A DNA stretch of 55,964 nucleotides, taken from contig DAIDKM010000010.1 in the NCBI GenBank assembly GCA_027450045.1, positions 1 through 55,964 of the forward strand, given 5' to 3'. This document shows positions 1 to 22,546 of this stretch, one piece after another; the stretch's first letter is position 1, and every line of letters begins with the position of its first letter. A model generated the notes under the pieces. The model made no database searches. It was not told the origin of the DNA and saw only the letters and a program-made list of their open reading frames with translations. The translations under genes were made by a program, and so were the position numbers. This stretch comes from Paludibacter sp. (lineage in GTDB: Bacteria > Bacteroidota > Bacteroidia > Bacteroidales > Paludibacteraceae).

Positions 1-1116
1 CTCGGCAGAGGCTACACCGGCCATGAACACCTTACGGCCTTTGGTTTGATAAACATGAACGCCCGGCTGTATGATCCGGCATTGGGAAGGTTTTTATCTC
101 CTGATCCTTATGTTCAAGCTCCGGATTTTAGCCAGAACTTTAATAGGTATTCATATTGTGTAAATAATCCGTTGAGGTTTACGGACCAGAATGGAAAATT
201 TTTCTTCTTGCCGATACTTATAGGTGCTGCTATTAATGTTGCTATACAAGGTTTATCCGGTAATATTCATAATTTTGCGGGTTTTATGGTCGCTGCTGGC
301 ATTGGAGGATTATCCGGTTTGGCTGGTGCTGGAGCAGGTGCACTGGTTGGCGGGGCGATGCATGTAGGCGGTTTTCTGGGAGGCGCAGCGATAGGAGCCG
401 CTGGTGGCTTTGCAGGAGGTTTTGTTGGTGGAACTGGCAATGCGTGGGCGAATGGTGCCAGTTTTGGGAATGGATTACTAAGCGGATTATTGGAAGGAGG
501 GCTTGGAGCTTTAGCTGGAGGTATTATAGGAGGCGTGACTGGAGGAATTCAGTCATATCATAATGATAAATTGTATGTGACAAATGATGATTTGCTGGGG
601 TATACTGATGGAGCAGTTATGTCAGAGAATGAACTAGAAGCATTTTCACTGAGAGAAATGGGTATTCAAGAAGGAAATTATGGTATAAGTGATATTACTA
701 TAAGCACCCCGTCTGATTGTACTTTTAATACAGAGACCAAATGGTTTTATGATTCAAAAGGAATAGCATCAGGCGAGGCACGGCAAAGTTTTTGGACAGG
801 GAAAACCACTGTTCATATTGCACAAGCCGCAACAAAAAACCCTATTATGCTAAAAGGAACACTCATACATGAATTTACTCATGCGTGGGATTATTTTAGA
901 GGAGCAACAAACGGAATCTCAGATGCTTTATTTCATAGTAGCACGGAAAATTCTGCTATTAATGCAGAAAGAAATTACTACCAAGCATTTCATTCAAATA
1001 GTTCATTTATTAAAAGTTTAATAAAGAATTGTGATTTGTATCAACTACAGTGGCAAAATCCCAAACCATTACAATGGATTTCTCCATTTAAGAGTCGCGT
1101 TGTATTAATACCTTGA
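1..1116 (+). CDS. RHS-repeat protein C-terminus with HExxH toxin tip (5' partial)
   Basis: The reading frame is open to the left edge, so only the C-terminal end of a larger RHS/YD-repeat protein is present. It starts with the end of the RHS core ([15 protein letters not shown], then [11 protein letters not shown]), the conserved junction after which polymorphic toxin tips begin. Next is a long Gly/Ala-rich hydrophobic stretch (about bases 200-545), common before RHS toxin tips. The last 170 residues hold the zincin signature HEFTH (bases 868-882, [12 protein letters not shown]), suggesting a zinc metallopeptidase toxin. The stop codon overlaps the start of the next small gene, as expected of a toxin/immunity pair. 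The RHS assignment is firm; the toxin activity is inferred from the HExxH motif alone. Confidence 0.8.
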
Positions 1117-1526
1117 TGAATATGAAAAGATATATTAAACCTATAGTTTATTGTTCATTTTTATTTATTGCATTATACTTGGGTATATTTAGAAAAGGAT
1201 TTAGTTATTATACGGGAATAGGAACTTCATACAGCTATTTTGCAGCACAAAAAGCGATTCGAGATAGTAGTGTATTAGTATATTATTCTCAAGGGCTTGT
1301 TCATCATGTTTATAGTGGAAATATAGACAGTCTTCAAAAAGCATATGGTTTTTCGAGCAAAGATGGAGTTACTGAAGTTTCATCTATAGTTCTTAAAATT
1401 TACAATCTAGAAATCAATAAGGCAATACACAAAAGACTAGGAGAAATAAAATGGAAAGAATATCAATTTAAAAGAGATTCTATGGCAAGAAAATATGAAA
1501 TCAAACTAATAGAGAAACCTCATTGA
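1116..1526 (+). CDS. putative immunity protein for the HExxH RHS toxin
   Basis: This encodes 136 residues of unrecognised family. The ATG shares its A with the TGA of the upstream RHS gene (TGATG), so translation is probably coupled; a second ATG lies six bases further on. An N-terminal hydrophobic segment (IVYCSFLFIALYLGIF, about residues 8-23) predicts a membrane anchor, and the rest is a charged, mostly soluble domain. Position directly behind a polymorphic toxin tip, small size and AT-rich composition suggest an immunity protein. That role is inferred from context only. If the anchored domain faces the periplasm, it would act where a delivered peptidase would do damage. Confidence 0.55.
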   Translation: MNMKRYIKPIVYCSFLFIALYLGIFRKGFSYYTGIGTSYSYFAAQKAIRDSSVLVYYSQGLVHHVYSGNIDSLQKAYGFSSKDGVTEVSSIVLKIYNLEINKAIHKRLGEIKWKEYQFKRDSMARKYEIKLIEKPH

Positions 1527-1615
1527 ACTATTATTCCAAACCGGTGCGAAATAAAATTCAACGAAGTTAATCTTTCGTGTGGGAGTAAAACTATCTCGGC
1601 AGTATTACCCACGTA

Positions 1616-2512
1616 GTGAATGCCGACGGCTCTTTGACACAAGAATTAAGCTATGATCCCTGGGGCAGATTGCGTGACCCAAATACACAAGTAGCATACA
1701 CTCCCGACACAGAACCGGTATTATTCCTCGGCAGAGGCTACACCGGCCATGAACACCTTACGGCCTTTGGTTTGATAAACATGAACGCCCGGCTGTATGA
1801 TCCAGCTCTTGGCAGGTTTTTAAGCCCCGACCCCTATGTACAAGCTCCGGATTGGAGCCAAAACTTCAACAGGTATTCATATTGTGTGAATAATCCATTG
1901 ATTTACGTTGACTATAACGGTTATACATGGGTAAGTCATTTCGGATATTGGGTTGGACAAAATTGGAAACCAATTGTCACTATTGCAGCAACTGTGGTTG
2001 TGGTTAGTGTTGTAACAATAGCCACTGCTGGGATGGGAACTTTGGCGGCGGCCGCTATTACTGGTGCAGCAGGAGGTTTTACAAGTGGGGCAGTTGGTAC
2101 ATGGATAAATGGTGGCAACTTTGGGCAAGGTTTGGTAAGTGGATTTGTGAATGGGGCTGTGGGTGCTGTAGCAGGAATGGCAGGAGGTGCTGTCGCCGGT
2201 TGGGCATCAAAGAACATCGGTGGCTTTGCGTTAAATTCGCTTCAGGTGTCGGGTAAATCAGCCATAGGAGGAATGATTTCCGGCGCACTTGGAGGTTCTT
2301 TCAGTGGTGCTGTGGGTGGTTTTATTACCGGACTTGCACTTACCGGCGATCTTGATAAGGCTTGGAGTATGGCCAGTCAGGGAGCTATTTACGGAGGCAT
2401 TGCAGGCCTTGCATTGGGTGGATATAGAGGGTACAAGATGCTAAGGCTTTGGGTAGAAATCCGTGGACAGGAGAAACTAAATATTATAGAGGGGGAACAA
2501 ATTTTACTTTAA
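1616..2512 (+). CDS. orphan RHS core cassette, frameshifted before its toxin tip
   Basis: Similarity to the RHS core starts abruptly near base 1592 (YLGSITHVVNADGSLTQEL), just after an in-frame stop at 1586-1588, so no large RHS body precedes it. It is a displaced C-terminal cassette, and the GTG at 1616 may not be a genuine start. It continues through [19 protein letters not shown] and [11 protein letters not shown] into a Gly/Ala-rich hydrophobic region (about 1930-2430). After GGYRGYK the frame runs into unrelated sequence and stops at 2512, while the expected continuation (DAKALGRNPWTGE) lies in another frame. The most economical reading is loss of one base near 2437, so the gene is probably broken. 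Confidence 0.65.
   Translation: MNADGSLTQELSYDPWGRLRDPNTQVAYTPDTEPVLFLGRGYTGHEHLTAFGLINMNARLYDPALGRFLSPDPYVQAPDWSQNFNRYSYCVNNPLIYVDYNGYTWVSHFGYWVGQNWKPIVTIAATVVVVSVVTIATAGMGTLAAAAITGAAGGFTSGAVGTWINGGNFGQGLVSGFVNGAVGAVAGMAGGAVAGWASKNIGGFALNSLQVSGKSAIGGMISGALGGSFSGAVGGFITGLALTGDLDKAWSMASQGAIYGGIAGLALGGYRGYKMLRLWVEIRGQEKLNIIEGEQILL
1727..1803 (+). repeat. RHS core direct repeat (77 bp identical to bases 1-77)
   Basis: Bases 1-77 and 1727-1803 are identical, and a third copy starts at about 3189 with two early substitutions and a 20-base insertion. The copies diverge in third positions soon after GATCC. Such conserved blocks at the junction of RHS core and tip are sites where homologous recombination can exchange tips. 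Confidence 0.85.
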
Positions 2513-6103: not shown

Positions 6104-6134
6104 TTGGTGGTTTTATAATAATCTATTACTTTTG
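6104..6134 (+). promoter_or_regulatory. promoter of the Phe/Tyr biosynthesis operon
   Basis: TTG at 6104-6106 (in TTCTTGG) is followed after 20 bases by TACTTTTG at 6127-6134, matching the Bacteroidota -33/-7 pattern. Transcription would start near 6140, about 20 bases before the leader peptide ATG and about 170 bases before pheA, giving an attenuator-type leader of normal size. Confidence 0.65.
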
Positions 6135-6160
6135 TAGCCGAAAACGTAACGATTCAGCTC

Positions 6161-6235
6161 ATGGCACAAACTTTTGCATATTTCTTTTTTTACTTTTACT
6201 TTAGCCAAAGTAAGAGCGGGAGTTTGTTGTCTTAA
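6161..6235 (+). CDS. Phe/Tyr-rich leader peptide of the aromatic operon
   Basis: This is a 24-codon ORF starting MAQTFAYFFFYFYF and ending at TAA 6233-6235. Nine of residues 5-14 are Phe or Tyr (six Phe, three Tyr), an extreme bias found in attenuator leader peptides such as E. coli PheL. It lies between a good promoter and a terminator hairpin, upstream of genes for phenylalanine and tyrosine synthesis. Its 3' end (6214-6225) supplies the antiterminator arm. Ribosome stalling at these codons when charged tRNA-Phe or tRNA-Tyr is scarce would control read-through. The peptide itself probably has no other function. Confidence 0.82.
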   Translation: MAQTFAYFFFYFYFSQSKSGSLLS

Positions 6236-6295
6236 CCATAAGTAATCAATTTTAGGTAGTACAAAAATCCCGCTCAGCAAGCGGGATTTTTTTTT
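6196..6295 (+). promoter_or_regulatory. transcription attenuator (segments 1-4)
   Basis: Four alternating RNA segments can be drawn. Segments 1 and 2: TTACTTT (6196-6202) pairs with AAAGTAA (6207-6213) over a 4-base loop, the first arm lying in the last Tyr/Phe codons of the leader peptide. Segment 2 extension: GAGCGGGA (6214-6221) is perfectly complementary to TCCCGCTC (6268-6275), forming the antiterminator. Segments 3 and 4 form the terminator at 6263-6291. A ribosome stalled on the Phe/Tyr codons would mask segment 1, free segment 2 to pair with 3, and permit transcription of pheA and downstream genes. The architecture is seen in the sequence; regulation is inferred. Confidence 0.8.
6263..6295 (+). 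terminator. attenuator terminator before pheA
   Basis: A 12-bp stem (AAAAATCCCGCT at 6263-6274 with AGCGGGATTTTT at 6280-6291) has a 5-base loop and a run of nine T ending at 6295. It is a textbook intrinsic terminator 13 bases before the pheA start, which makes sense only as a regulated one. Confidence 0.92.
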
Positions 6296-6308
6296 AAGAA
6301 GAAAAATC

Positions 6309-7151
6309 ATGATTAAAGTAGCCATTCAAGGAATTGCAGGTTCGTTTCACGACATAGCTGCACAATGTTATTTTGGAAAAGACGAAGTGGAAGTGGTGCC
6401 ATGCAGCACCTTCAAAGAGCTGTTTGCCTGCCTGGCCGACAACGGTTCGATGGTGGGGATGGTGGCCATTGAAAATACCATTGCCGGAAGCCTTTTGCCA
6501 AATTATAATATGCTGCGAGAGAGCAATCTTACCATCATTGGTGAACATAAGTTGCGCGTCAAGCATAACTTAGTTGCTTTAGCGGGACAAACCATTGCCG
6601 ACATTCACGAAGTACATTCACATTACATGGCGTTGCTGCAATGCGAAGATTTCTTTTTGCAATATCCTTCCATTCGGTTAATTGAAGCTGAAGATACCGC
6701 AGCCGAAGGTTTGCGTATCGCCAAACATCATGCAAAAAAACAAGCGGCGATCTGTAGTCGATACGCGGCAGAATTGTTTGGATTGCATATTTTGGCAGAA
6801 GATATTGAGACAAATAAGCATAACTTTACGCGGTTTTTAGTGGTCGGGAACGAACTGATGCGGGACAAGTTGAATGCAGACAAGCCACGAGACAAATCCT
6901 CGTTGGTATTTTCGTTACCGCACGAAGAAGGAAGCCTCTCGAAGGTATTGACCATTTTGTCGTTTTACAACATCAACCTGACGAAGATCCAATCACTTCC
7001 GGTGGTGGGCCAGGAATGGGAATACCTGTTTTACATTGACGTGACCTACAAAGATTATGTGCGTTATCGACAGGCACTCGATGCTATTTTGCCATTAACC
7101 AAAAACATGCGGATTCTGGGAGAATATGAAGAAGGAGAACAAACAATATAA
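6309..7151 (+). CDS. pheA: prephenate dehydratase
   Basis: Converts prephenate to phenylpyruvate in phenylalanine synthesis. It is a 280-residue monofunctional enzyme with no chorismate mutase domain; that activity sits in the fusion gene two places downstream. The N-terminal catalytic domain shows IENTIAGSL (about 54-62) and the TRF motif at 174-176 (HNFTRF). The C-terminal ACT domain (from about 198) contains EGSLSKVL and NINLTKIQSLP, the positions that bind phenylalanine in allosteric enzymes, so feedback inhibition is likely. First structural gene after the attenuator. Confidence 0.95.
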   Translation: MIKVAIQGIAGSFHDIAAQCYFGKDEVEVVPCSTFKELFACLADNGSMVGMVAIENTIAGSLLPNYNMLRESNLTIIGEHKLRVKHNLVALAGQTIADIHEVHSHYMALLQCEDFFLQYPSIRLIEAEDTAAEGLRIAKHHAKKQAAICSRYAAELFGLHILAEDIETNKHNFTRFLVVGNELMRDKLNADKPRDKSSLVFSLPHEEGSLSKVLTILSFYNINLTKIQSLPVVGQEWEYLFYIDVTYKDYVRYRQALDAILPLTKNMRILGEYEEGEQTI

Positions 7152-7206: not shown

Positions 7207-7242
7207 TTCCCTAACTTCTTATCTTCTTTAACTTCTAAATTT
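7207..7242. repeat. dispersed intergenic repeat, copy B (inverted)
   Basis: TTCCCTAACTTCTT (7207-7220) and TAACTTCTAAATTT (7229-7242) are the exact reverse complements of the two 14-base words at 4684-4697 and 4653-4666. The spacing between words is 8 bases here and 17 in copy A. It fills most of the 114-base gap between pheA and the aminotransferase gene. Confidence 0.75.
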
Positions 7243-7265
7243 TGTCCACTAACTATCAAACAACT

Positions 7266-8450
7266 ATGATACGAACCATTCAACCTGCCAATCGATTAAA
7301 CTCCGTTAGCGAGTACTATTTCTCCACCAAGTTGAAAGAGATAGCCCAGATGAATCGCGACGGGAAAAATGTGATTAGTCTCGGCATCGGTATGCCCGAT
7401 TTGCCACCGTCGGAAGCCACGATTCAAGCATTAAAACAAGAAGCCGAAAAGCCTGATGTACATGGTTACCAGAGCTATAACGGCATTCCTGAATTGAGGG
7501 AAGCGTTCGCGCAGTGGTACAAAACATGGTTTGACGTGACACTGAATTCTGCCAATGAAATTTTGCCTTTAATGGGATCGAAAGAAGGCATCTTGCATAT
7601 CTCGCTGGCTTTTCTCAATCCCGGGGATGGTGTCCTGGTGCCTAACCCGGGCTACCCAACCTATACTTCAGTGAGCAAATTAGTGGAAGCCAATGTGATT
7701 TCGTACGATTTGGATGAAAACAATGATTGGCAGCCTGATTTTGATGCACTGGAAAAAATGGACTTATCGAACGTTAAACTCATGTGGGTCAACTACCCAA
7801 ACATGCCTACCGGCGCGAGTGCCACGCGAGAATTGTTTGATAAATTAGTGGCCTTCGGCAAAAAACATCAAATCGTTATTTGCAACGATAACCCGTATAG
7901 TTTTATCTTGAACGAAAATCATTTGAGCATTTTAGCCAGTGAAGGCGCCAAGGAAATTTGCATCGAAATGAATTCGATGAGTAAGTCGCATAACATGTCG
8001 GGATGGCGCATCGGGATGGTAGCGGCCAATGCCCAATTTATCGACTGGATAATACGTGTGAAAAGCAATATCGATTCCGGTATGTTTCGTCCGTTGCAAG
8101 TGGCTGCCGTTGCAGCATTGCACAACTCACCCGAGTGGCATCGTGCAAAAAATATCACTGTCTATGCCAAACGTCGCGTTATAGCTGAACAAATCATGCA
8201 AACACTTGGTTGCAGGTTTGATTCAAAGCAAGTTGGCATGTTTTTATGGGGACGTATCCCCGATCGTTATGCCGACGCAGGAGAACTGGCAGATGAGGTA
8301 TTATATCAAGCTAACGTATTTATTACACCCGGTTTTATTTTCGGTACTCAAGGGAAACGTTATATTCGTATTTCGCTTTGCAGTCCAAGAGCAAAATTGG
8401 AAGAAGCTTTGGAGCGTATTGAGAAGATAGGAAAAGAAAAATCAGAATAA
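7266..8450 (+). CDS. class I/II aminotransferase (aromatic amino acid type)
   Basis: PLP fold-type I aminotransferase of 394 residues. Family features are NYPNMPTG (N179), DNPYSF (D208, Y211), the PLP lysine K240 in SMSKSHNMSGWRIG, and R248. Its place between pheA and the DAHP synthase gene argues that it transaminates phenylpyruvate and 4-hydroxyphenylpyruvate to Phe and Tyr, with glutamate as donor. Substrate choice cannot be read from sequence, and an LL-diaminopimelate-type or aspartate-type relative is possible. I chose the ATG at 7266; an in-frame TTG at 7242 would add eight residues encoded within the intergenic repeat. The next gene follows after 25 bases, so it is in the same operon. 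Confidence 0.85.
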   Translation: MIRTIQPANRLNSVSEYYFSTKLKEIAQMNRDGKNVISLGIGMPDLPPSEATIQALKQEAEKPDVHGYQSYNGIPELREAFAQWYKTWFDVTLNSANEILPLMGSKEGILHISLAFLNPGDGVLVPNPGYPTYTSVSKLVEANVISYDLDENNDWQPDFDALEKMDLSNVKLMWVNYPNMPTGASATRELFDKLVAFGKKHQIVICNDNPYSFILNENHLSILASEGAKEICIEMNSMSKSHNMSGWRIGMVAANAQFIDWIIRVKSNIDSGMFRPLQVAAVAALHNSPEWHRAKNITVYAKRRVIAEQIMQTLGCRFDSKQVGMFLWGRIPDRYADAGELADEVLYQANVFITPGFIFGTQGKRYIRISLCSPRAKLEEALERIEKIGKEKSE

Positions 8451-8475: not shown

Positions 8476-9537
8476 ATGGAATTACAACCAATTTACGAAC
8501 CAATTACGGAGGAGAATCGTCCGCTCGTGATTGCCGGCCCGTGCAGCGCTGAAACAGAAGAACAAACATTAGAAACAGCACGCCAATTAGCTGCAAAAGG
8601 AATTAAAATCTTTCGTGCAGGAATTTGGAAACCACGCACCAAACCCGGAGGTTTTGAAGGTGTCGGTAGCGTGGGATTACCCTGGCTGCGCCGTGTAAAA
8701 CAAGAAACCGGCATGTTGACCGCGGTAGAAGTAGCCACCGCCAAACATGTCTATGAAGCGTTAAAATATGGCGTTGATATTTTATGGATTGGAGCACGCA
8801 CCACGGCAAATCCTTTTGCTGTACAGGAAATTGCTGATGTATTGCAAGGTGTTGACATTCCCATTTTAATCAAAAATCCGGTGAATCCTGATGTTGAATT
8901 GTGGATCGGCGCTATTGAGCGGGTTTACAATGCCGGAATTCGTCGTTTGGCGGTGATTCATCGCGGATTCAGCACCTACGACAAAACGGTGTATCGCAAC
9001 ATTCCGCAATGGCACATACCTATCGAGTTGCGTCGCCGCATGCCTGAAATGCCTATTATATGCGATCCAAGTCACATCGGAGGTCGTCGCGAACTGATTG
9101 CATCCATCTCGCAACAGGCGCTCGACTTGCAATTTGAAGGGTTGATCATCGAATCGCATTGTAATCCGGACGAAGCATGGAGCGATAAGAACCAGCAAAT
9201 CACACCTGATGTGCTAGAACAAATTCTGCAACATTTGGTGGTGCGTAAGATGAATCAAACCACCGAAGACCTGTCAATTTTACGCCATCAAATTGACGAG
9301 CTGGATAATCAACTTTTAGAGGTACTGGCCAAACGATTCCGTGTATCACGCGAAATTGGCACTTATAAAAAGGAACATGGCATGCCTGTTTTACAAACCC
9401 TTCGCTATGACGAAATTCTCCATAACCGTGTAGCTCAAGCTGAATCGATCGGCATCAACGGCGACTTTATGAAAAACATTCTTGAAGCCATTCACGAAGA
9501 ATCGGTTCGGGTTCAATTGGAGTTGATTAATAAATAG
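8476..9537 (+). CDS. bifunctional DAHP synthase / chorismate mutase
   Basis: A 353-residue fusion. Residues 1 to about 255 are a type I-beta DAHP synthase: LVIAGPCSAE near 17, the IWKPRTKPGGFEG phosphate-binding region, IHRGFSTYD and CDPSHIGGRR. It condenses PEP and erythrose 4-phosphate in the first shikimate-pathway step. Residues about 260-350 are an AroQ-type chorismate mutase (LRHQIDELDNQLLEVLAKR, then IGTYKKEHGMPV), which makes prephenate for the flanking PheA and TyrA. The mutase domain may also act as allosteric sensor, as in other DAHPS-CM fusions. Same operon as its neighbours. Confidence 0.93.
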   Translation: MELQPIYEPITEENRPLVIAGPCSAETEEQTLETARQLAAKGIKIFRAGIWKPRTKPGGFEGVGSVGLPWLRRVKQETGMLTAVEVATAKHVYEALKYGVDILWIGARTTANPFAVQEIADVLQGVDIPILIKNPVNPDVELWIGAIERVYNAGIRRLAVIHRGFSTYDKTVYRNIPQWHIPIELRRRMPEMPIICDPSHIGGRRELIASISQQALDLQFEGLIIESHCNPDEAWSDKNQQITPDVLEQILQHLVVRKMNQTTEDLSILRHQIDELDNQLLEVLAKRFRVSREIGTYKKEHGMPVLQTLRYDEILHNRVAQAESIGINGDFMKNILEAIHEESVRVQLELINK

Positions 9538-9613: not shown

Positions 9614-10387
9614 ATGCGGATTTTAATTCTCGGAGCCGGAAAGATGGGCTCCTTTTTCACGGATGTTCTGAGTTTTCAACACGAGGTGGCCCTCTACGAT
9701 GCAGATCCTAAACGGTTGCGCTTTGTTTACAACACCATTCGTATGTCTCAACTCGATGAGGTAAAGGAGTTTGATCCCGAATTGGTGATCAATGCTGTAA
9801 CCATTAAACACACGCTAAAGGCTTTTCGCGAGGTGATCCCTTTTTTGTCGAAAGATTGCCTGTTGTCGGATATCGCTTCGGTGAAAACAGGGCTTCCGGA
9901 GTTTTACAGGAAAAGCGGGTTTCGTTTCGTTTCCTCCCATCCCATGTTTGGACCGACTTTTGCCAGTCTAAGCGATCTTTCCTCTCAAAGTGCGATTATT
10001 ATTGCCGAATCAGACCCAAAAGGAAAAACCTTCTTCAAGGAGGTTTATGGTTCACTGAAACTCTCTATTTTCGAGTATTCATTCAAAGAACACGACGAAA
10101 CAACGGCATATTCATTAGCCATTCCTTTTGCCTCTACGTTGGTTTTTGCCTCTGTAATGAAACATCAGGAAGCTCCCGGAACGACGTTTAAACGCCATTT
10201 AAGCATCGCGCATGGGTTATTGTCAGAGGATGATTACTTGTTGACAGAGATATTGTTCAACCCTTACACACCGGAACAATTGGTAAATATTCGCGAACAA
10301 CTGACTGTTTTACTCGACATTATAGAGAAAAAAGACACGAAAAAAATGCAACACTACTTGCAAAAGATACGGGAAAATATTGCATAA
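9614..10387 (+). CDS. tyrA: prephenate dehydrogenase
   Basis: Oxidatively decarboxylates prephenate to 4-hydroxyphenylpyruvate for tyrosine synthesis. The 257-residue protein begins with a Rossmann motif (LGAGKMGSFF). It has the family signatures SDIASVKTGL and SHPMFGPT, the latter with the catalytic histidine. No ACT domain is present, and it is shorter than many bacterial TyrA proteins, so feedback control may rest on pheA and the attenuator. It starts 76 bases after the fusion gene and is the last gene of the Phe/Tyr operon. It converges on the U32 gene 53 bases away with no obvious hairpin between them. Confidence 0.9.
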   Translation: MRILILGAGKMGSFFTDVLSFQHEVALYDADPKRLRFVYNTIRMSQLDEVKEFDPELVINAVTIKHTLKAFREVIPFLSKDCLLSDIASVKTGLPEFYRKSGFRFVSSHPMFGPTFASLSDLSSQSAIIIAESDPKGKTFFKEVYGSLKLSIFEYSFKEHDETTAYSLAIPFASTLVFASVMKHQEAPGTTFKRHLSIAHGLLSEDDYLLTEILFNPYTPEQLVNIREQLTVLLDIIEKKDTKKMQHYLQKIRENIA

Positions 10388-12378: not shown

Positions 12379-12385
12379 AAGGATG

Positions 12386-12458
12386 TGGTACCACCAGGAA
12401 TCGAACCGGGGACACAAGGATTTTCAGTCCTTTGCTCTACCAACTGAGCTATGGTACC
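12386..12458 (-). tRNA. tRNA-Phe (GAA)
   Basis: The 73-base cloverleaf reads on the minus strand: acceptor GGTACCA/TGGTACC, D-arm GCTC/GAGC, anticodon loop CTGAAAA (anticodon GAA) on an AAGGA/TCCTT stem, and T-arm with TTCGATT loop. The T-stem CCCGG/CCTGG has one C-U mismatch in the middle. CCA is not encoded. It has its own promoter and terminator. This is one of the two tRNA species whose charging would be sensed by the attenuator 6 kb away. Confidence 0.95.
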
Positions 12459-16372: not shown

Positions 16373-17920
16373 ATGGGAAATAAAAAGAGACATAAGGAAG
16401 CATCCCCTTTTCATAATCCGAAAATCCCTTATATAGTAATAAATTTAGCTGTAAATAGCGCTATTTTTTACTTTGTGGTAGGAATATTCCCATTTGTGAA
16501 TGACGACCCTGCAAAGAAATATGCTTGGCCTTTTTTTCTTTATCAATTTATATGGATCATGTTAGGTATTGCCTATAAAAAATACCTTTCACTTCGGGAA
16601 CGCACCATTGGGACGGTTGTTATGCAATGCTTTAAAACTGACTTTCTGGCGTTACTATTTGGTATTGGATTATTGATTTTCTTTGCTGATTTCGAGTATT
16701 CCATCGGCTTTCTACTGGCACTCACGGGTAGTTTTCTGATAAGTGAGTTGATATTGATTTCGCTCTTTTATTCGTTTGGAGAAGCTCAGCTTGTGGATGC
16801 CACGGTTGTTCCTTCTGAAACCATAGCGACTCCTATCCATGCATATACTGAACATCCATTAGATGCAGAAACCGTTGGCACGTTAGAAAAGTTGATACGC
16901 GAAGCAGGAGGCGCTCGATTGCTCGAATTTCTTCGAATCCGCATTCGTCCTTTTGTTTCATCGACTCTTTTTGTGAACACTACGTCACGTTTCAATATCG
17001 AAAAGGTTAATGTAGATCGTTATGTTACCATTATAAACCTGAAGGCTACGAATGAAATTCGGGAAATTAATGCATTTTTTGCTGCTGTGAATGACAAACT
17101 ACCCGTTGGAGGTATCTTTATTTCTTGTTTTGAAACGAAAAGTCAGCGAAAGAAAAGGATTCTGGGGGCACATCCTTACATGAGCAATTATTTACAATAT
17201 GCTCTTGATTACATTTTTCGAAGAATGATGCCAAAGTTAAATTTGACACGTGAATTCTATTTTTGGGTTACAAATGGCACCAACCGCGTATTATCCAAAG
17301 CTGAAGTATTTGGTCGTTTGTATTATTCAGGATTTGAGGTTATTGGTCAACGAAAAATAGTTGGACTTTCTTATGTTGTTGCACGTAAAATAAAAGCTCC
17401 TATACGACAAGAGACGGCTAATTACAGTCCGATTATTAAATTAAAACGTTTTGGCAAAGATGGCAAAATAATCAAGGTTTTCAAATTGCGAACCATGCAT
17501 CCATATTCAGAATACTTGCAAGATTATATTTACAAACATCATAACTTACATCAAAGCGGGAAATTCAAAACAGATATACGCATCACAACTTTTGGTCATT
17601 TTTTGCGTAGACATTGGTTGGATGAACTTCCAATGATTGTGAATTTTCTGAAAAGGGAAATGAAATTAGTAGGAGTGCGCCCTTTAAGCGAGCATTACTT
17701 TCGTTTATATTCGCCCGATTTGCAGCACCAGCGTATTCACCACCGACCGGGTTTATTGCCTCCTTATTATGCCGATATGCCAAATGATTTGGAAGAGATT
17801 CAAGCATCAGAACGTCGTTATTTGGATGCTTGCGAAAAACGGGGTACTTTCATCACCGATGTTCGGTATTTTTTCAAAATCATGTATCGCATCTTGTTTC
17901 ATCGTGCACGTAGTCGGTGA
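16373..17920 (+). CDS. sugar transferase (polyprenyl-phosphate glycosyl-1-phosphate transferase domain)
   Basis: A 515-residue membrane protein with four hydrophobic segments in residues about 20-135 and a soluble middle part (about 165-335). That part resembles a degenerate SAM-methyltransferase fold (PVGGIFISCFETKSQRKK; LSKAEVFGRLYYSGFEVIG). The C-terminal bacterial sugar transferase domain shows KLRTMHPYSEY, the catalytic Asp-Glu in HWLDELPMIVNF, and LVGVRPLSE. The domain normally starts with a membrane re-entrant helix before the GKDGK motif; here that stretch is not hydrophobic, which is unusual. It probably starts lipid-linked repeat-unit synthesis for capsule or O-antigen. The sugar substrate cannot be read. 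Confidence 0.78.
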   Translation: MGNKKRHKEASPFHNPKIPYIVINLAVNSAIFYFVVGIFPFVNDDPAKKYAWPFFLYQFIWIMLGIAYKKYLSLRERTIGTVVMQCFKTDFLALLFGIGLLIFFADFEYSIGFLLALTGSFLISELILISLFYSFGEAQLVDATVVPSETIATPIHAYTEHPLDAETVGTLEKLIREAGGARLLEFLRIRIRPFVSSTLFVNTTSRFNIEKVNVDRYVTIINLKATNEIREINAFFAAVNDKLPVGGIFISCFETKSQRKKRILGAHPYMSNYLQYALDYIFRRMMPKLNLTREFYFWVTNGTNRVLSKAEVFGRLYYSGFEVIGQRKIVGLSYVVARKIKAPIRQETANYSPIIKLKRFGKDGKIIKVFKLRTMHPYSEYLQDYIYKHHNLHQSGKFKTDIRITTFGHFLRRHWLDELPMIVNFLKREMKLVGVRPLSEHYFRLYSPDLQHQRIHHRPGLLPPYYADMPNDLEEIQASERRYLDACEKRGTFITDVRYFFKIMYRILFHRARSR

Positions 17921-17981
17921 TACATTGAATATCAACATTTTGTTTGTAGGATAATTAATTGAATATTTAATTTATTTCTTT

Positions 17982-19739
17982 ATGAGAACCCTATTGCTTG
18001 CTTGTTTTCTCTTTTTAACGGTGCCATTGTTTAGCCAGTATATTCCTGAAGATATAAGTTATACTTCAGTATATGATTTTTTAGACGAGATGGCAAATGA
18101 CGGTGTGATTTCCATTAATACGGCTATCAAACCATATAGCCGTCGATTTATTGCACAAAAGCTGCAAGAAATTGCCAAAAACTCATCTCAGTTGAGTAAA
18201 CGTCAACGGCAAGAAGCGGCATTTTACCTCAACGATTATCCGTTGGAACGCGACACGTTGCCCGATAACTGGAATATTGTAGAGAACTCGAAAACAGCAG
18301 TTTCATTGTGGCCTCCGGGTATTTATTATCGAACAGATACGATGCGGATTCGTCTTACTCCAATTATTGGGTACGAAACCATGCACAACCAAAGTGGATC
18401 AATTTCTATTCGCTCGGTAGGAGCTGATTTTCAGGGAATGTTTGGCAAACATTTATCTGTTTATGCCAGTTTAAGAGATCATTCACAAATTGGTGATTTA
18501 TTATCGAAAGGAGAAAGATTGTTTGCAAACCAAGCAAGCCCATATACAGGCCGAGATACGTTGATGCGTATTCCATCTTATTTAACTCGTTTTCCAGGAG
18601 GAGCTTATAAAGTGGACAATGGAACCAATGCAGGCGGTGACTACAGCGAAATGCGCGGTGGCATTTATTACTCGTGGGGTTGGGGAAACGTCGGGTTAGC
18701 AAAAGATTATATCGAATGGGGCGATAACTATCATGGATCCAATATTTTGGCTGGAAATTCACCCTCATTTCCATTTATTGCCTTTAATATCAAACCAGTA
18801 AATTGGTTCGAGCTGAACTATTTTCATGGTTGGTTGACTTCTGACGTGATGGATTCGACGGATTATTACACTTACAACACAGGACAAAAAGAGTATCGCT
18901 ATAAAAACAAGTTTATTGCTGCCGATATGATCACTTTTCGTCCGACCCGAGAGCTTTATCTTTCATTTGGAAATTCAATTATATATTCCGAACGTTCCAT
19001 CCAGCCGGCTTACTTGATTCCGTTAGCATTCTACAAATCAATGGATCACTCGTTAACCATGGGGTCTGAAAATCAAAACTCACAGATGTTTTTTAATCTC
19101 AGCTCGCGGAATATTCGCCATTTGCATTTGTTTATGTCAACCTACATTGATGAATTTTCGGTATCTCGGTTAAGTCCTTCCAATCCTCAGAAAAATCCTA
19201 TTTCGTGGAAGTTTGGCGGCGAACTGAGTGATTATCCTTTTCAGGATTTTTCATTCATCGGAGAATTTACTCGAACGTATGCTTTAACCTATAAACACTT
19301 TATTCCGAGTCTCGATTTTACTTCTGGTGGTTATGCTTTGGGCAGTTATTTGTGGGATAACGCACAAGAAATCTATCTGGCAACTACATACAAACCAATT
19401 CGAGGCTTATTGCTGAAAGGATCATATACCTATGCCGTGCATGGAAACGAATATGATTACGTTCACGCATTGGCCGATGATATTTTAGCACAACCCTTTA
19501 TGAAAGACAAGGTATGGCAAAACAAAACAGCTTCTTTTCATGCTACTTACGAAATGGTGAACAATGTATTTCTTCTTTTTGATGTCGATTACAGCGACAT
19601 AACAGGATATACGCCAACCGATCCGAAAGGGCCGGGTGAGTATCGTACAAATGCTCAAGGATATTTGGATATGTACACGCCTTTGTTCTTGCAAGGGAAA
19701 AAATTTACTGTTACCTTTGGCGTAAATGTCGGCTTATAG
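17982..19739 (+). CDS. Wzi-like capsule assembly outer-membrane protein
   Basis: A 585-residue protein with a signal peptide (MRTLLLACFLFLTVPLFSQ). The body has many alternating aromatic strands and turns, as in a large outer-membrane beta-barrel (for example GGIYYSWGWGNVGLAKDYIEWG and GGYALGSYLW). The N-terminal region (YDFLDEMANDGVISINTAIKPYSRRFIAQKLQEI) is the helical start seen in Bacteroidota Wzi-family proteins. Proposed role: surface attachment or assembly of capsule, fitting its place between the priming transferase and nucleotide-sugar genes. Family recognition is by pattern and should be checked by profile search. Confidence 0.65.
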   Translation: MRTLLLACFLFLTVPLFSQYIPEDISYTSVYDFLDEMANDGVISINTAIKPYSRRFIAQKLQEIAKNSSQLSKRQRQEAAFYLNDYPLERDTLPDNWNIVENSKTAVSLWPPGIYYRTDTMRIRLTPIIGYETMHNQSGSISIRSVGADFQGMFGKHLSVYASLRDHSQIGDLLSKGERLFANQASPYTGRDTLMRIPSYLTRFPGGAYKVDNGTNAGGDYSEMRGGIYYSWGWGNVGLAKDYIEWGDNYHGSNILAGNSPSFPFIAFNIKPVNWFELNYFHGWLTSDVMDSTDYYTYNTGQKEYRYKNKFIAADMITFRPTRELYLSFGNSIIYSERSIQPAYLIPLAFYKSMDHSLTMGSENQNSQMFFNLSSRNIRHLHLFMSTYIDEFSVSRLSPSNPQKNPISWKFGGELSDYPFQDFSFIGEFTRTYALTYKHFIPSLDFTSGGYALGSYLWDNAQEIYLATTYKPIRGLLLKGSYTYAVHGNEYDYVHALADDILAQPFMKDKVWQNKTASFHATYEMVNNVFLLFDVDYSDITGYTPTDPKGPGEYRTNAQGYLDMYTPLFLQGKKFTVTFGVNVGL

Positions 19740-19761
19740 CCATAACGTGACTTAAAAAAAC

Positions 19762-20889
19762 ATGCGCCAGATACAAATGGTTGACTTACAAAGTCAATAC
19801 GATAAAGTAAAAAACGACGTCAACGCCCAAATGCAGCAAGTGATGGATGCTGCATCGTTCATCAGAGGTGAAAAAGTGACTACCTTCCAACGTCATTTGG
19901 AAAATTACTTGAATGTGAAACATGTCGTTCCAGTGGGAAATGGCACGGATGCGTTGCAGATTGCTTTGATGACTTTAGGTCTTCACCCGGGAGATGAAGT
20001 CATAACGCCAACGTTTACTTTTATTGCAACAGTTGAGGTAATTGCTTTGTTGGGATTAACGCCGGTGCTGGTGGATGTCGATCGTGAAACGTTTTGTATG
20101 TCGCCAAATGCCGTTCGTAAAGCGATTACTGAAAAAACAAAAGTAATTTTACCGGTACATCTCTTTGGACAAAATGCTGACATGGAATCGTTGAGAGCCA
20201 TTGCACAAGAACATAAACTTTATATGGTGGAAGATGCTTGTCAGTCGATGGGATCCCATTATACCTTTCAAAATGGCGAAAGCTATTCTTCCGGTTGTAT
20301 GGGAAATATAGGCTGTACATCATTTTTCCCATCTAAAAATTTAGGCTGTTTTGGCGATGGCGGTGCTCTTTTTACAAATGATGATACGTTGGCAACAACC
20401 ATTCGCTCCATTGCAAATCATGGGATGGAAGTACGTTATCACCACGATCGGATTGGCGTCAATTCACGGTTGGATAGTTTACAGGCAGCTGTGCTGGATG
20501 TAAAACTTGCCCATTTGGATCAATACATTGAAGCGCGTCAATCAGCGGCAGAATTTTACAATCGAGCTTTTACTGATTGTGACAAGATAACTATCCCGGT
20601 GTATCAGCCTCAATCAACTCACGCGTTTCATCAATATACAGTACTTTTGCATGATGTTGATAGAAATACAGTACAAGCCAAATTGACGGCAAAAGGCATT
20701 CCTTCGATGGTTTATTATCCGATTCCCATACATTTACAAAAAGCGTATGCCTATCTGGGGTACAAAACCGGTGATTTCCCGATAGCGGAGCAACTTTCGC
20801 AACAAGTGCTTTCGTTGCCCATGCACACTGAACTGGATGAAGAACAACTAAACTACATTGTCACTTCGTTGAAAGAGACTTTGCAATAG
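19762..20889 (+). CDS. DegT/DnrJ/EryC1/StrS aminotransferase (WbpE/WlbC-like)
   Basis: PLP aminotransferase of 375 residues acting on nucleotide-linked keto-sugars. Motifs are GNGTDALQIAL, TFTFIATVEVI, EDACQSMGS, the PLP lysine in FFPSKNLGCFGDGGALF, and GVNSRLDSLQAAVL. Together with the following acetyltransferase and oxidoreductase genes it matches WbpE/WlbC, which aminate UDP-2-acetamido-2-deoxy-3-keto-glucuronate at C3. Specificity is inferred from this three-gene association. It starts 22 bases after the Wzi-like gene. Confidence 0.85.
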   Translation: MRQIQMVDLQSQYDKVKNDVNAQMQQVMDAASFIRGEKVTTFQRHLENYLNVKHVVPVGNGTDALQIALMTLGLHPGDEVITPTFTFIATVEVIALLGLTPVLVDVDRETFCMSPNAVRKAITEKTKVILPVHLFGQNADMESLRAIAQEHKLYMVEDACQSMGSHYTFQNGESYSSGCMGNIGCTSFFPSKNLGCFGDGGALFTNDDTLATTIRSIANHGMEVRYHHDRIGVNSRLDSLQAAVLDVKLAHLDQYIEARQSAAEFYNRAFTDCDKITIPVYQPQSTHAFHQYTVLLHDVDRNTVQAKLTAKGIPSMVYYPIPIHLQKAYAYLGYKTGDFPIAEQLSQQVLSLPMHTELDEEQLNYIVTSLKETLQ

Positions 20890-20933
20890 ATAATTTTAGA
20901 ATAGCATCAAATCTGTCTTTTATTTAATATCCA

Positions 20934-21509
20934 ATGTCCTATTTTGCTCACGAAACAGTAGTGATTGACCAGCCGTGTACCATTGGTGATGGAACAAAAA
21001 TCTGGCATTTTTCGCATATTATGCCACATTGCGTGATTGGCGACAATTGCAATATTGGCCAAAATGTAGTTGTTTCGCCGGATGTCGTGCTTGGACGCAA
21101 TGTGAAGGTGCAAAATAATGTATCGATCTATTCGGGTGTTATTTGCGAAGATGATGTATTTTTAGGGCCATCTATGGTTTTCACCAACGTGATGAATCCC
21201 CGAAGTGCAGTGAATCGTCATGCCGAATTCAAAAAAACATTTGTGCGTCAGGGAGCGTCCATTGGAGCCAATGCCACCATTGTATGTGGCATCAGTATTG
21301 GCGAATATGCCATGATTGGCGCAGGCGCTGTTGTGACAAAAGATGTGAAGTCGTATGCATTGGTTGTCGGGAATCCTGCCCGTCAAATGGGTTGGGTGAG
21401 TGCTTATGGAATGAAATTGCACTTTGATGAACAAGGTCTTGCAACTTGTTCTGAAACCGGTGAAGTGTATCAGTTGCAAGATCATAGTGTTACAAAATTA
21501 ATTACCTAA
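20934..21509 (+). CDS. hexapeptide-repeat N-acetyltransferase (WbpD/WlbB-like)
   Basis: A 191-residue left-handed beta-helix acyltransferase. The hexapeptide periodicity is clear: IGDGTKIWHFSHI, VIGDNCNIGQNVVV, VLGRNVKVQNNVS, then ASIGANATIVCG, EYAMIGAGAVVTKDV and ALVVGNPARQMGWV. It resembles the enzymes that acetylate the C3 amino group of UDP-2-acetamido-3-amino-2,3-dideoxy-glucuronate with acetyl-CoA. Context supports this: the C3 aminotransferase precedes it and the matching dehydrogenase follows two bases after its stop. Confidence 0.85.
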   Translation: MSYFAHETVVIDQPCTIGDGTKIWHFSHIMPHCVIGDNCNIGQNVVVSPDVVLGRNVKVQNNVSIYSGVICEDDVFLGPSMVFTNVMNPRSAVNRHAEFKKTFVRQGASIGANATIVCGISIGEYAMIGAGAVVTKDVKSYALVVGNPARQMGWVSAYGMKLHFDEQGLATCSETGEVYQLQDHSVTKLIT

Positions 21510-21511
21510 AA

Positions 21512-22546
21512 ATGAGTCGTATAATAAAATTTGCTGTCGTAGGACAAGGTCATATCGGTAAACGACATGCCGAAATGATTCGCCGCGAACCGAATGCTGA
21601 ATTGATTGCCGTATGTGATATTTTGTCGAAAGAACAATTAGGCTTAACTAACTTGCAGGAGCGATTCTTTTCTTCGATTGAAGAGCTGCTGAATGCCAAT
21701 TTAGATATTGATGTAGTAAATATTTGTACTCCAAATGGATACCATGCAGAATATGCTATTCGGGCGTTGGAAAAACGATATCATGTTGTGATTGAAAAGC
21801 CGGTTTCGCTCACACGCGCTGATGCTGAACGCATCTTGCATACTTCCTTGTCGGTGTCGCGTGATGTATTTTGTGTGATGCAAAACCGTTATTCACCACC
21901 ATCGGTGTGGCTTAAAGAATTAATAACGAATAAAACATTGGGGGATATTTTTATGGTGCAACTCAATTGTTATTGGAATCGCGATGCACGTTATTACAAA
22001 GCAGGCAACTGGCATGGCGATAAGCAATTGGATGGCGGCACCTTGTTCACGCAATTTTCGCATTTCATCGATATTATGTATTGGCTATTCGGAGATATTA
22101 CAAATATTCATGGCAATTTCAAAGATTTCAATCACCAACAATTAACTGATTTTGAAGACAGTGGCGTAGTTACTTTCGATTTTTTACAAGGTGGAATGGG
22201 AGTTCTAAATTATTCTACTGCTATATGGGACGCTAATTATGAAAGCAGTATCACCATAATTGGAGCACAAGGCACGGTGAGGGTTGCCGGTCAATACATG
22301 AATGAAGTAACTTATTGTCATGTAAAAGATTATGAAATGCCTGAGTTGGCTGCATCCAATCCACCCAATGATTATGGTCTATACAAAGGTTCAGCGCAAA
22401 ATCATCATTACATCATACATAATGTGATTGAAAAACTTTTGGGAAATAGCCCTATTACCACCAACTTGCTGGAGGGAATGAAGGTAACCGAAATCATTGA
22501 AAAAATCTACCATGTACGTGATACACAATGGAATAAAAAAAGGTAA
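21512..22546 (+). CDS. Gfo/Idh/MocA oxidoreductase (WbpB/WlbA-like)
   Basis: NAD-dependent oxidoreductase of 344 residues with an N-terminal Rossmann fold (VVGQGHIGKRHAEMI), the family motif VIEKPVSLT, and a C-terminal substrate domain (GDKQLDGGTLFTQFSHFID). WbpB/WlbA oxidise UDP-GlcNAc-uronate at C3 and supply the keto-sugar for the aminotransferase. With its two upstream neighbours it gives UDP-2,3-diacetamido-2,3-dideoxy-glucuronate. The 6-dehydrogenase that makes the starting uronate and any C2 epimerase are not in the window. Confidence 0.83.
   Translation: MSRIIKFAVVGQGHIGKRHAEMIRREPNAELIAVCDILSKEQLGLTNLQERFFSSIEELLNANLDIDVVNICTPNGYHAEYAIRALEKRYHVVIEKPVSLTRADAERILHTSLSVSRDVFCVMQNRYSPPSVWLKELITNKTLGDIFMVQLNCYWNRDARYYKAGNWHGDKQLDGGTLFTQFSHFIDIMYWLFGDITNIHGNFKDFNHQQLTDFEDSGVVTFDFLQGGMGVLNYSTAIWDANYESSITIIGAQGTVRVAGQYMNEVTYCHVKDYEMPELAASNPPNDYGLYKGSAQNHHYIIHNVIEKLLGNSPITTNLLEGMKVTEIIEKIYHVRDTQWNKKR

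Follow-up and report, generated by a model that had tools for sequence, protein, structure and literature searches.

The aromatic amino acid operon in the stretch of Paludibacter sp. DNA analysed here (55,964 nucleotides, referred to as the window) is very probably controlled by a classical ribosome-mediated transcription attenuator, which would read charged tRNA-Phe and tRNA-Tyr together. The basis for this is the sequence itself, its RNA structures, their conservation, covariation and geometry, and a tie between codon content and gene content, from which we infer translation of a leader open reading frame (ORF), ribosome stalling, transcription termination, and a response to shortage of Phe or Tyr. 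The attenuator had initially been regarded as a special feature of one operon. Instead, it is a class-wide element that occurs across Bacteroidia, where it probably represents an ancient, modular aromatic attenuator, with codons that evolve to match the genes under control. These codons would be Phe-only where pheA stands alone, Phe and Tyr (sometimes with Trp) before the joint operon, and Tyr-rich before tyrA and DAHP synthase genes. In some lineages, two serial copies would provide multi-stage control of the supply of Phe, Tyr, and perhaps Trp, while the window would carry the single-copy, joint Phe/Tyr form.

Operon, promoter and leader peptide

The operon lies on the forward strand and comprises pheA, encoding prephenate dehydratase (6309–7151; Pfam PF00800 and NCBIfam), followed by genes for a class I/II aminotransferase (7242–8450; PF00155) and a DAHP synthase/chorismate mutase (8476–9537; PF00793 and PF01817), and by tyrA, encoding prephenate dehydrogenase (9614–10387; PF02153). 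A tRNA-Phe (GAA) gene is found approximately 2 kb downstream of tyrA, on the reverse strand (12385–12458); charged tRNA-Phe is one of the two presumed signals of the attenuator.

Upstream of the leader, a TTG at 6104–6106 and TACTTTTG (TAnnTTTG) at 6127–6134 form a promoter-like arrangement on the forward strand that fits the TTTG/TAnnTTTG type of Bacteroidota, and transcription is expected to start near 6140. Among 164 leaders scanned, 126 have TAnnTTTG within 90 nt of the leader ATG (9 expected from shuffled sequences), at a median of 34 nt upstream of it.

The leader peptide ORF MAQTFAYFFFYFYFSQSKSGSLLS occupies 6161–6235 on the forward strand and comprises 24 codons. As in other attenuators of amino acid operons, codons for the end products are clustered in this short ORF: its putative control region, codons 5–14 (6173–6202), contains six Phe and three Tyr codons (F5, Y7, F8, F9, F10, Y11, F12, Y13, and F14), and the aromatic run is conserved. 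The preliminary description had listed the promoter, the ORF with its nine Phe/Tyr codons, a 7-bp hairpin, an 8-base antiterminator, and a strong terminator 13 bases upstream of pheA, and all of these were recovered at exactly the positions given. No second leader-like short ORF followed by a terminator occurs in the 56-kb window. Elsewhere in the 2.96-Mb genome, every stretch of seven consecutive TTY/TAY codons lies antisense to a lysine/glutamate-rich gene and was rejected, which leaves the leader before pheA as the one genuine Phe/Tyr run of this length.

RNA structures at the locus

The leader RNA can form two mutually exclusive helices, an arrangement typical of amino acid operon attenuators. 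The antiterminator pairs a 5′ arm, GAGCGGGA (6214–6221), with its exact 8-bp complement, the 3′ arm TCCCGCTC (6268–6275), which overlaps the 5′ arm of an intrinsic terminator (6263–6295). In the terminator, 6263–6274 pairs with 6280–6291, and the U tract runs to 6295, leaving 13 bases before the pheA ATG at 6309. The stretch from 6259 to 6295 has a folding energy of −16.2 kcal/mol. Folding is also far stronger than in shuffled sequences for the leader as a whole (6141–6300, z-score −4.0) and for 6190–6278 (z-score −4.7), with none of 200 shuffles equally stable in either case.

Two further helices are suggested by the folds. The 7-bp hairpin at 6196–6213 (6196–6202 with 6207–6213), which is conserved in the genus, is a possible pause hairpin. 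In the minimum free energy fold of 6141–6300, this hairpin is enclosed by a longer helix (6163–6177 with 6216–6231) that buries the 5′ arm of the antiterminator and is the better candidate for a classical 1:2, or protector, helix. Across relatives, this helix is plausible but more weakly supported than the other parts: in 127 leaders, the antiterminator 5′ arm pairs with upstream RNA at 0.77, against 0.62 in the shuffled control.

Conservation and covariation

Regions upstream of pheA were compared at 106 distinct Bacteroidales loci. In 104 of these, pheA is preceded by a short ORF in which aromatic codons are densely clustered, and in the two exceptions (L059 and L080) the contig ends no more than 165 nt from pheA. 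Between the aromatic run and pheA, a scan detected a standard terminator in 99 of the 104 leaders; the remaining five have a GC hairpin with a weaker T tail. A second sample of 28 loci, drawn from other Bacteroidia orders and neighbouring classes (L112–L139), has the leader in 26. In the other two (L129 and L131), an aroA-like gene seemingly extends to pheA, according to visual inspection of the upstream ORF translation. Loss of the element in close relatives was the outcome that the preliminary description had singled out as damaging. Instead, Bacteroidales and most of the other Bacteroidia sampled keep the ORF together with the terminator and the alternative pairing, with compensatory changes.

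The leader was not found at 11 more distant loci in the phylum (L140–L150), where pheA is not followed by an aminotransferase or DAHP synthase gene, nor at five Bacteroidales loci (L174–L178), nor at several more where pheA lies apart from the operon (L161, L163–L165, L195–L200, and L207). At one locus (L101), transcription between the attenuator terminator and pheA must cross a tract of short, GC-rich repeats (GAACCGC...GCAGG) that exceeds 250 nt.

Covariation of the two arms was assessed, in each leader, from the best uninterrupted complement that the 5′ arm of the terminator has in the RNA following the final aromatic codon. Because the register is picked to maximise pairing, a shuffle that keeps it fixed is biased; the fair test permutes terminators among leaders and re-optimises the register for each pair. 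By this measure, leaders score 22.0 with their own terminators and 15.3 with permuted ones (standard deviation 0.27, maximum 16.3; 2000 permutations, 157 unique leaders). In both helices, each of the seven stem positions is occupied by several types of standard base pair, with compensatory changes. The window pair GAGCGGGA/TCCCGCTC, for example, corresponds in relatives to GAGCAGGAT/ATCCTGCTC, GAGGTGGG/CCCGCCTC, GACCGGGA/TCCCGGTC, GACAGGATTTT/AGAATCCTGTC, and TGTGAAGTGG/CCACTTCACA. Taken as sequence evidence, the recurrence of the leader in both samples and the co-varying arms make ordinary ribosome-mediated attenuation a well-supported reading.

It might be argued that the terminator is an ordinary one that stops stray transcription, with the operon expressed constitutively or controlled at the promoter and the leader devoid of regulation. 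Terminators upstream of operons are indeed common. We nevertheless regard this as scarcely credible, as it leaves unexplained why mutually exclusive helices should co-vary and why the codon run should be locked in position.

Ribosome position and the proposed switch

The distance from the last aromatic codon to the start of the antiterminator arm is nearly constant, with a median of 11 nt and quartiles of 10–13 nt in 161 leaders. A ribosome extends 15 nt from the first base of the P site to its front edge, and the 11-nt spacing matches the position of this edge when the last aromatic codon occupies the A site. In the window leader, the arm at 6214–6221 would begin just past a ribosome that has stalled at the final Phe codon.

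This fixed distance also bears on a different mechanism, in which the short ORF would be incidental and the terminator would answer to a metabolite, to a tRNA contact of the T-box kind, or to a protein that binds the RNA. The alternative helices by themselves are compatible with any attenuator. However, neither the spacing nor the retention of a Phe/Tyr-rich ORF while the flanking sequence diverges would be expected under such control. Furthermore, no Rfam family matches the leader region at its gathering threshold, the weak matches under relaxed settings coming mostly from the terminator, and the T-box riboswitch model has no match at its gathering score and none listed up to an E-value of 10. 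We therefore consider this mechanism highly improbable.

Ribosome-mediated attenuation was modelled by folding, codon by codon, the RNA ahead of the ribosome. The predicted probability of the antiterminator is 0.99 with the A site at codons 5–14, 0.74 at codon 15, 0.11 at codon 16, and 0.00 from codon 17 onwards. In the model, stalling thus frees the antiterminator and passage masks it; the modelled changeover occurs between codons 14 and 16, where the aromatic run ends, so that each of the Phe and Tyr codons could trigger antitermination.

The proposed sequence of events is as follows. Transcription would begin near 6140, and a ribosome would start on the leader at 6161. If either Phe or Tyr is short, the ribosome would stall on one of codons 5–14, with its front edge no further than about 6212. 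This would leave 6214–6221 free to pair with 6268–6275, the terminator would be blocked, and RNA polymerase would enter pheA and the aminotransferase, DAHP synthase/chorismate mutase, and tyrA genes. When both amino acids are plentiful, the ribosome would pass codon 15 and mask 6214–6221; when no ribosome is present, the helix of 6163–6177 with 6216–6231 could bury the same arm. With the arm masked, the terminator hairpin (6263–6291) would form and transcription would end at approximately 6287–6295. Since either amino acid could cause the stall, an operon that produces the two would have a sensor that responds when either is short. In ribosome-free RNA extending to 6277, the antiterminator dominates at equilibrium (0.988), and low basal expression must therefore be due to kinetics or to masking of the arm by ribosomes.

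Codon composition and gene content

The mix of Phe and Tyr codons varies with the genes downstream. At eight loci from three families, a small group, the leader precedes a stand-alone pheA, and these leaders contain 49 Phe and 3 Tyr codons in total (L015/L111, MTRFFTHFFFFFTQQ; L160 and L162, ...FRFFFFFAFFFC...; and L166, L167, L202, L203, and L204). Where pheA is accompanied by shared or Tyr genes, both residues are present in all 150 leaders (800 Phe and 600 Tyr). Ten leaders before DAHP synthase or tyrA genes without pheA contain 31 Phe against 48 Tyr, and one of them (L159) has the run AYYYWYYY, with Tyr and Trp only. The mean Tyr fraction is 0.06 for pheA alone, 0.44 with shared or Tyr genes, and 0.62 for those genes without pheA. 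One locus (L047), in which two overlapping frames make the leader ambiguous, was excluded from these statistics. Rank tests on composition give p-values of 9e-7 and 1e-4, which overstate independence because the loci are related, and are thus indications rather than exact probabilities. The direction of the shift is repeated within four single genomes, where the Phe:Tyr ratio of the stand-alone pheA leader can be compared with that of the other leaders: 7:0 vs 4:6 (G054), 9:0 vs 4:5 (G212), 6:1 vs 3:4 and 3:5 (G266), and 4:1 vs 3:5 and 3:6 (G337).

TTY and TAY codons are one base apart, and for this reason the Tyr codons might be neutral filler, with ribosome-mediated attenuation responding in practice to Phe alone. 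Overall, Phe outnumbers Tyr, it occupies the final aromatic codon in 91 of 104 Bacteroidales leaders, and it is the amino acid sensed by the enteric pheA leader. Nevertheless, Tyr that had arisen by drift would be expected before stand-alone pheA too, where it is nearly absent, and codons for Leu, Cys, Ile, and Val, which are also a single step from TTY, are rare within the run. Filler would likewise leave unexplained why Tyr occurs in every mixed-operon leader and predominates before Tyr or shared genes without pheA, to the point of a Phe-free run. In the model, moreover, a stall at any of codons 5–14 keeps the antiterminator free. Phe-only sensing is therefore unlikely, and the simplest reading of the codon mix is that both Phe and Tyr would be sensed. 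Joint sensing had been proposed from the window leader, and the tracking of downstream genes by the Phe:Tyr ratio lends it independent support.

Trp codons also occur in the aromatic run, in 12 of the 28 leaders outside Bacteroidales (L112–L139) vs 11 of 102 in Bacteroidales. TGG is two changes away from both TTY and TAY, yet it appears in this many of the L112–L139 leaders. These codons may indicate additional sensing of Trp, possibly because DAHP synthase feeds Trp as well.

Tandem attenuators

Nine loci carry two serial aromatic leaders upstream of the aromatic operon, each with its own terminator (L112, L159, L171, L172, L183, L184, L186, L187, and L188), and these serial arrangements occur in several lineages. 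Two leader ORFs are also present at L208 and L210. The window locus has a single attenuator.

Relationship to known attenuators

The enteric ilvGMEDA and thrABC leader peptides sense several amino acids at once. Multi-amino-acid sensing would be shared with the present element, while the amino acids and the pathway differ. In enterics, tyrA-aroF is controlled by TyrR. The enteric pheA attenuator (pheL; Rfam Phe_leader, RF01859) resembles the window locus in its Phe-rich leader peptide, its alternative antiterminator and terminator helices, and the prephenate dehydratase gene downstream. In contrast, the window has a Bacteroidota promoter, a leader of mixed Phe and Tyr, and presumed control of the whole Phe and Tyr branch, including DAHP synthase and tyrA. 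The RF01859 model scores 23.8 bits here, below its gathering cut-off of 55. Ribosome-mediated attenuation, including that of enteric pheA, is textbook knowledge (e.g., PMC1183508). The mechanism as such is known, and what varies here is its use with a probable dual input, across a whole class, and in tandem.

A 2004 FEMS paper by Vitreschak et al. reportedly covers attenuators of Bacteroidetes. Attenuation in this phylum was also predicted for the Bacteroid-trp RNA (RF01692; Weinberg et al. 2010, PMC2864571), which likewise acts in cis on an operon for an aromatic amino acid in Bacteroidetes but is associated with trp; RF01692 has no match in the window or the genome. In Bacteroides thetaiotaomicron, long 5′ UTRs contain short ORFs reminiscent of leader peptides (PMC7366714). 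For Flavobacteriaceae (Flavobacterium psychrophilum), the main text of PMC9723704 describes structured 5′ elements, without Rfam match, upstream of pheA and hisG, and reports indications that leader peptides mediate attenuation ahead of operons for amino acid biosynthesis. The pheA element of that report has both phylum and gene in common with the present one and is very likely its flavobacterial form, although neither the sequence nor the Phe/Tyr composition of a leader is given in that main text, nor is a link to gene content or a tandem arrangement. More distantly, the uORFC-13-1 motif of Acholeplasma (PMC8632094) consists of a short ORF that contains Phe codon(s) and is followed by a terminator, ahead of the DAHP synthase gene aroF. 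It shares these features with the present leader but is found in unrelated bacteria and is reported for Phe only. Tandem attenuators with two short ORFs in one leader are known from Salmonella mgtCBR (PMC3641672), which is not an amino acid biosynthesis operon, whereas the nine relatives here have two aromatic-codon attenuators in series.

As far as the searchable literature shows, three things are new: the leader sequence family across Bacteroidia, the tie between its Phe:Tyr content and the genes present, and the arrangement in series. Tentative reports aside, neither the sequence of the leader nor the input of this attenuator is given in the searchable papers, and the attenuator is absent from Rfam. 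A single RNA element is linked in this way to the supply of aromatic amino acids in a phylum of major importance in gut and environmental habitats, with joint Phe/Tyr control as the prediction. Split operons and stacked attenuators constitute natural experiments that make multi-input attenuation directly testable, including which amino acid is sensed, what effect the codon mix has, and whether a second attenuator in series adds gain.

Other features of the window

At the start of the window (46–2512, forward strand), two ORFs share an RHS-like motif and differ in their C-terminal parts, an arrangement that resembles duplicated RHS ends with alternative tips; one of the two was tested and had no Pfam match at 1e-5. 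Further downstream (16373–22546, forward strand), a polysaccharide-type cluster encodes, besides a 585-aa protein without Pfam match, a sugar transferase, a DegT-family aminotransferase, a hexapeptide transferase, and a GFO/IDH/MocA oxidoreductase.
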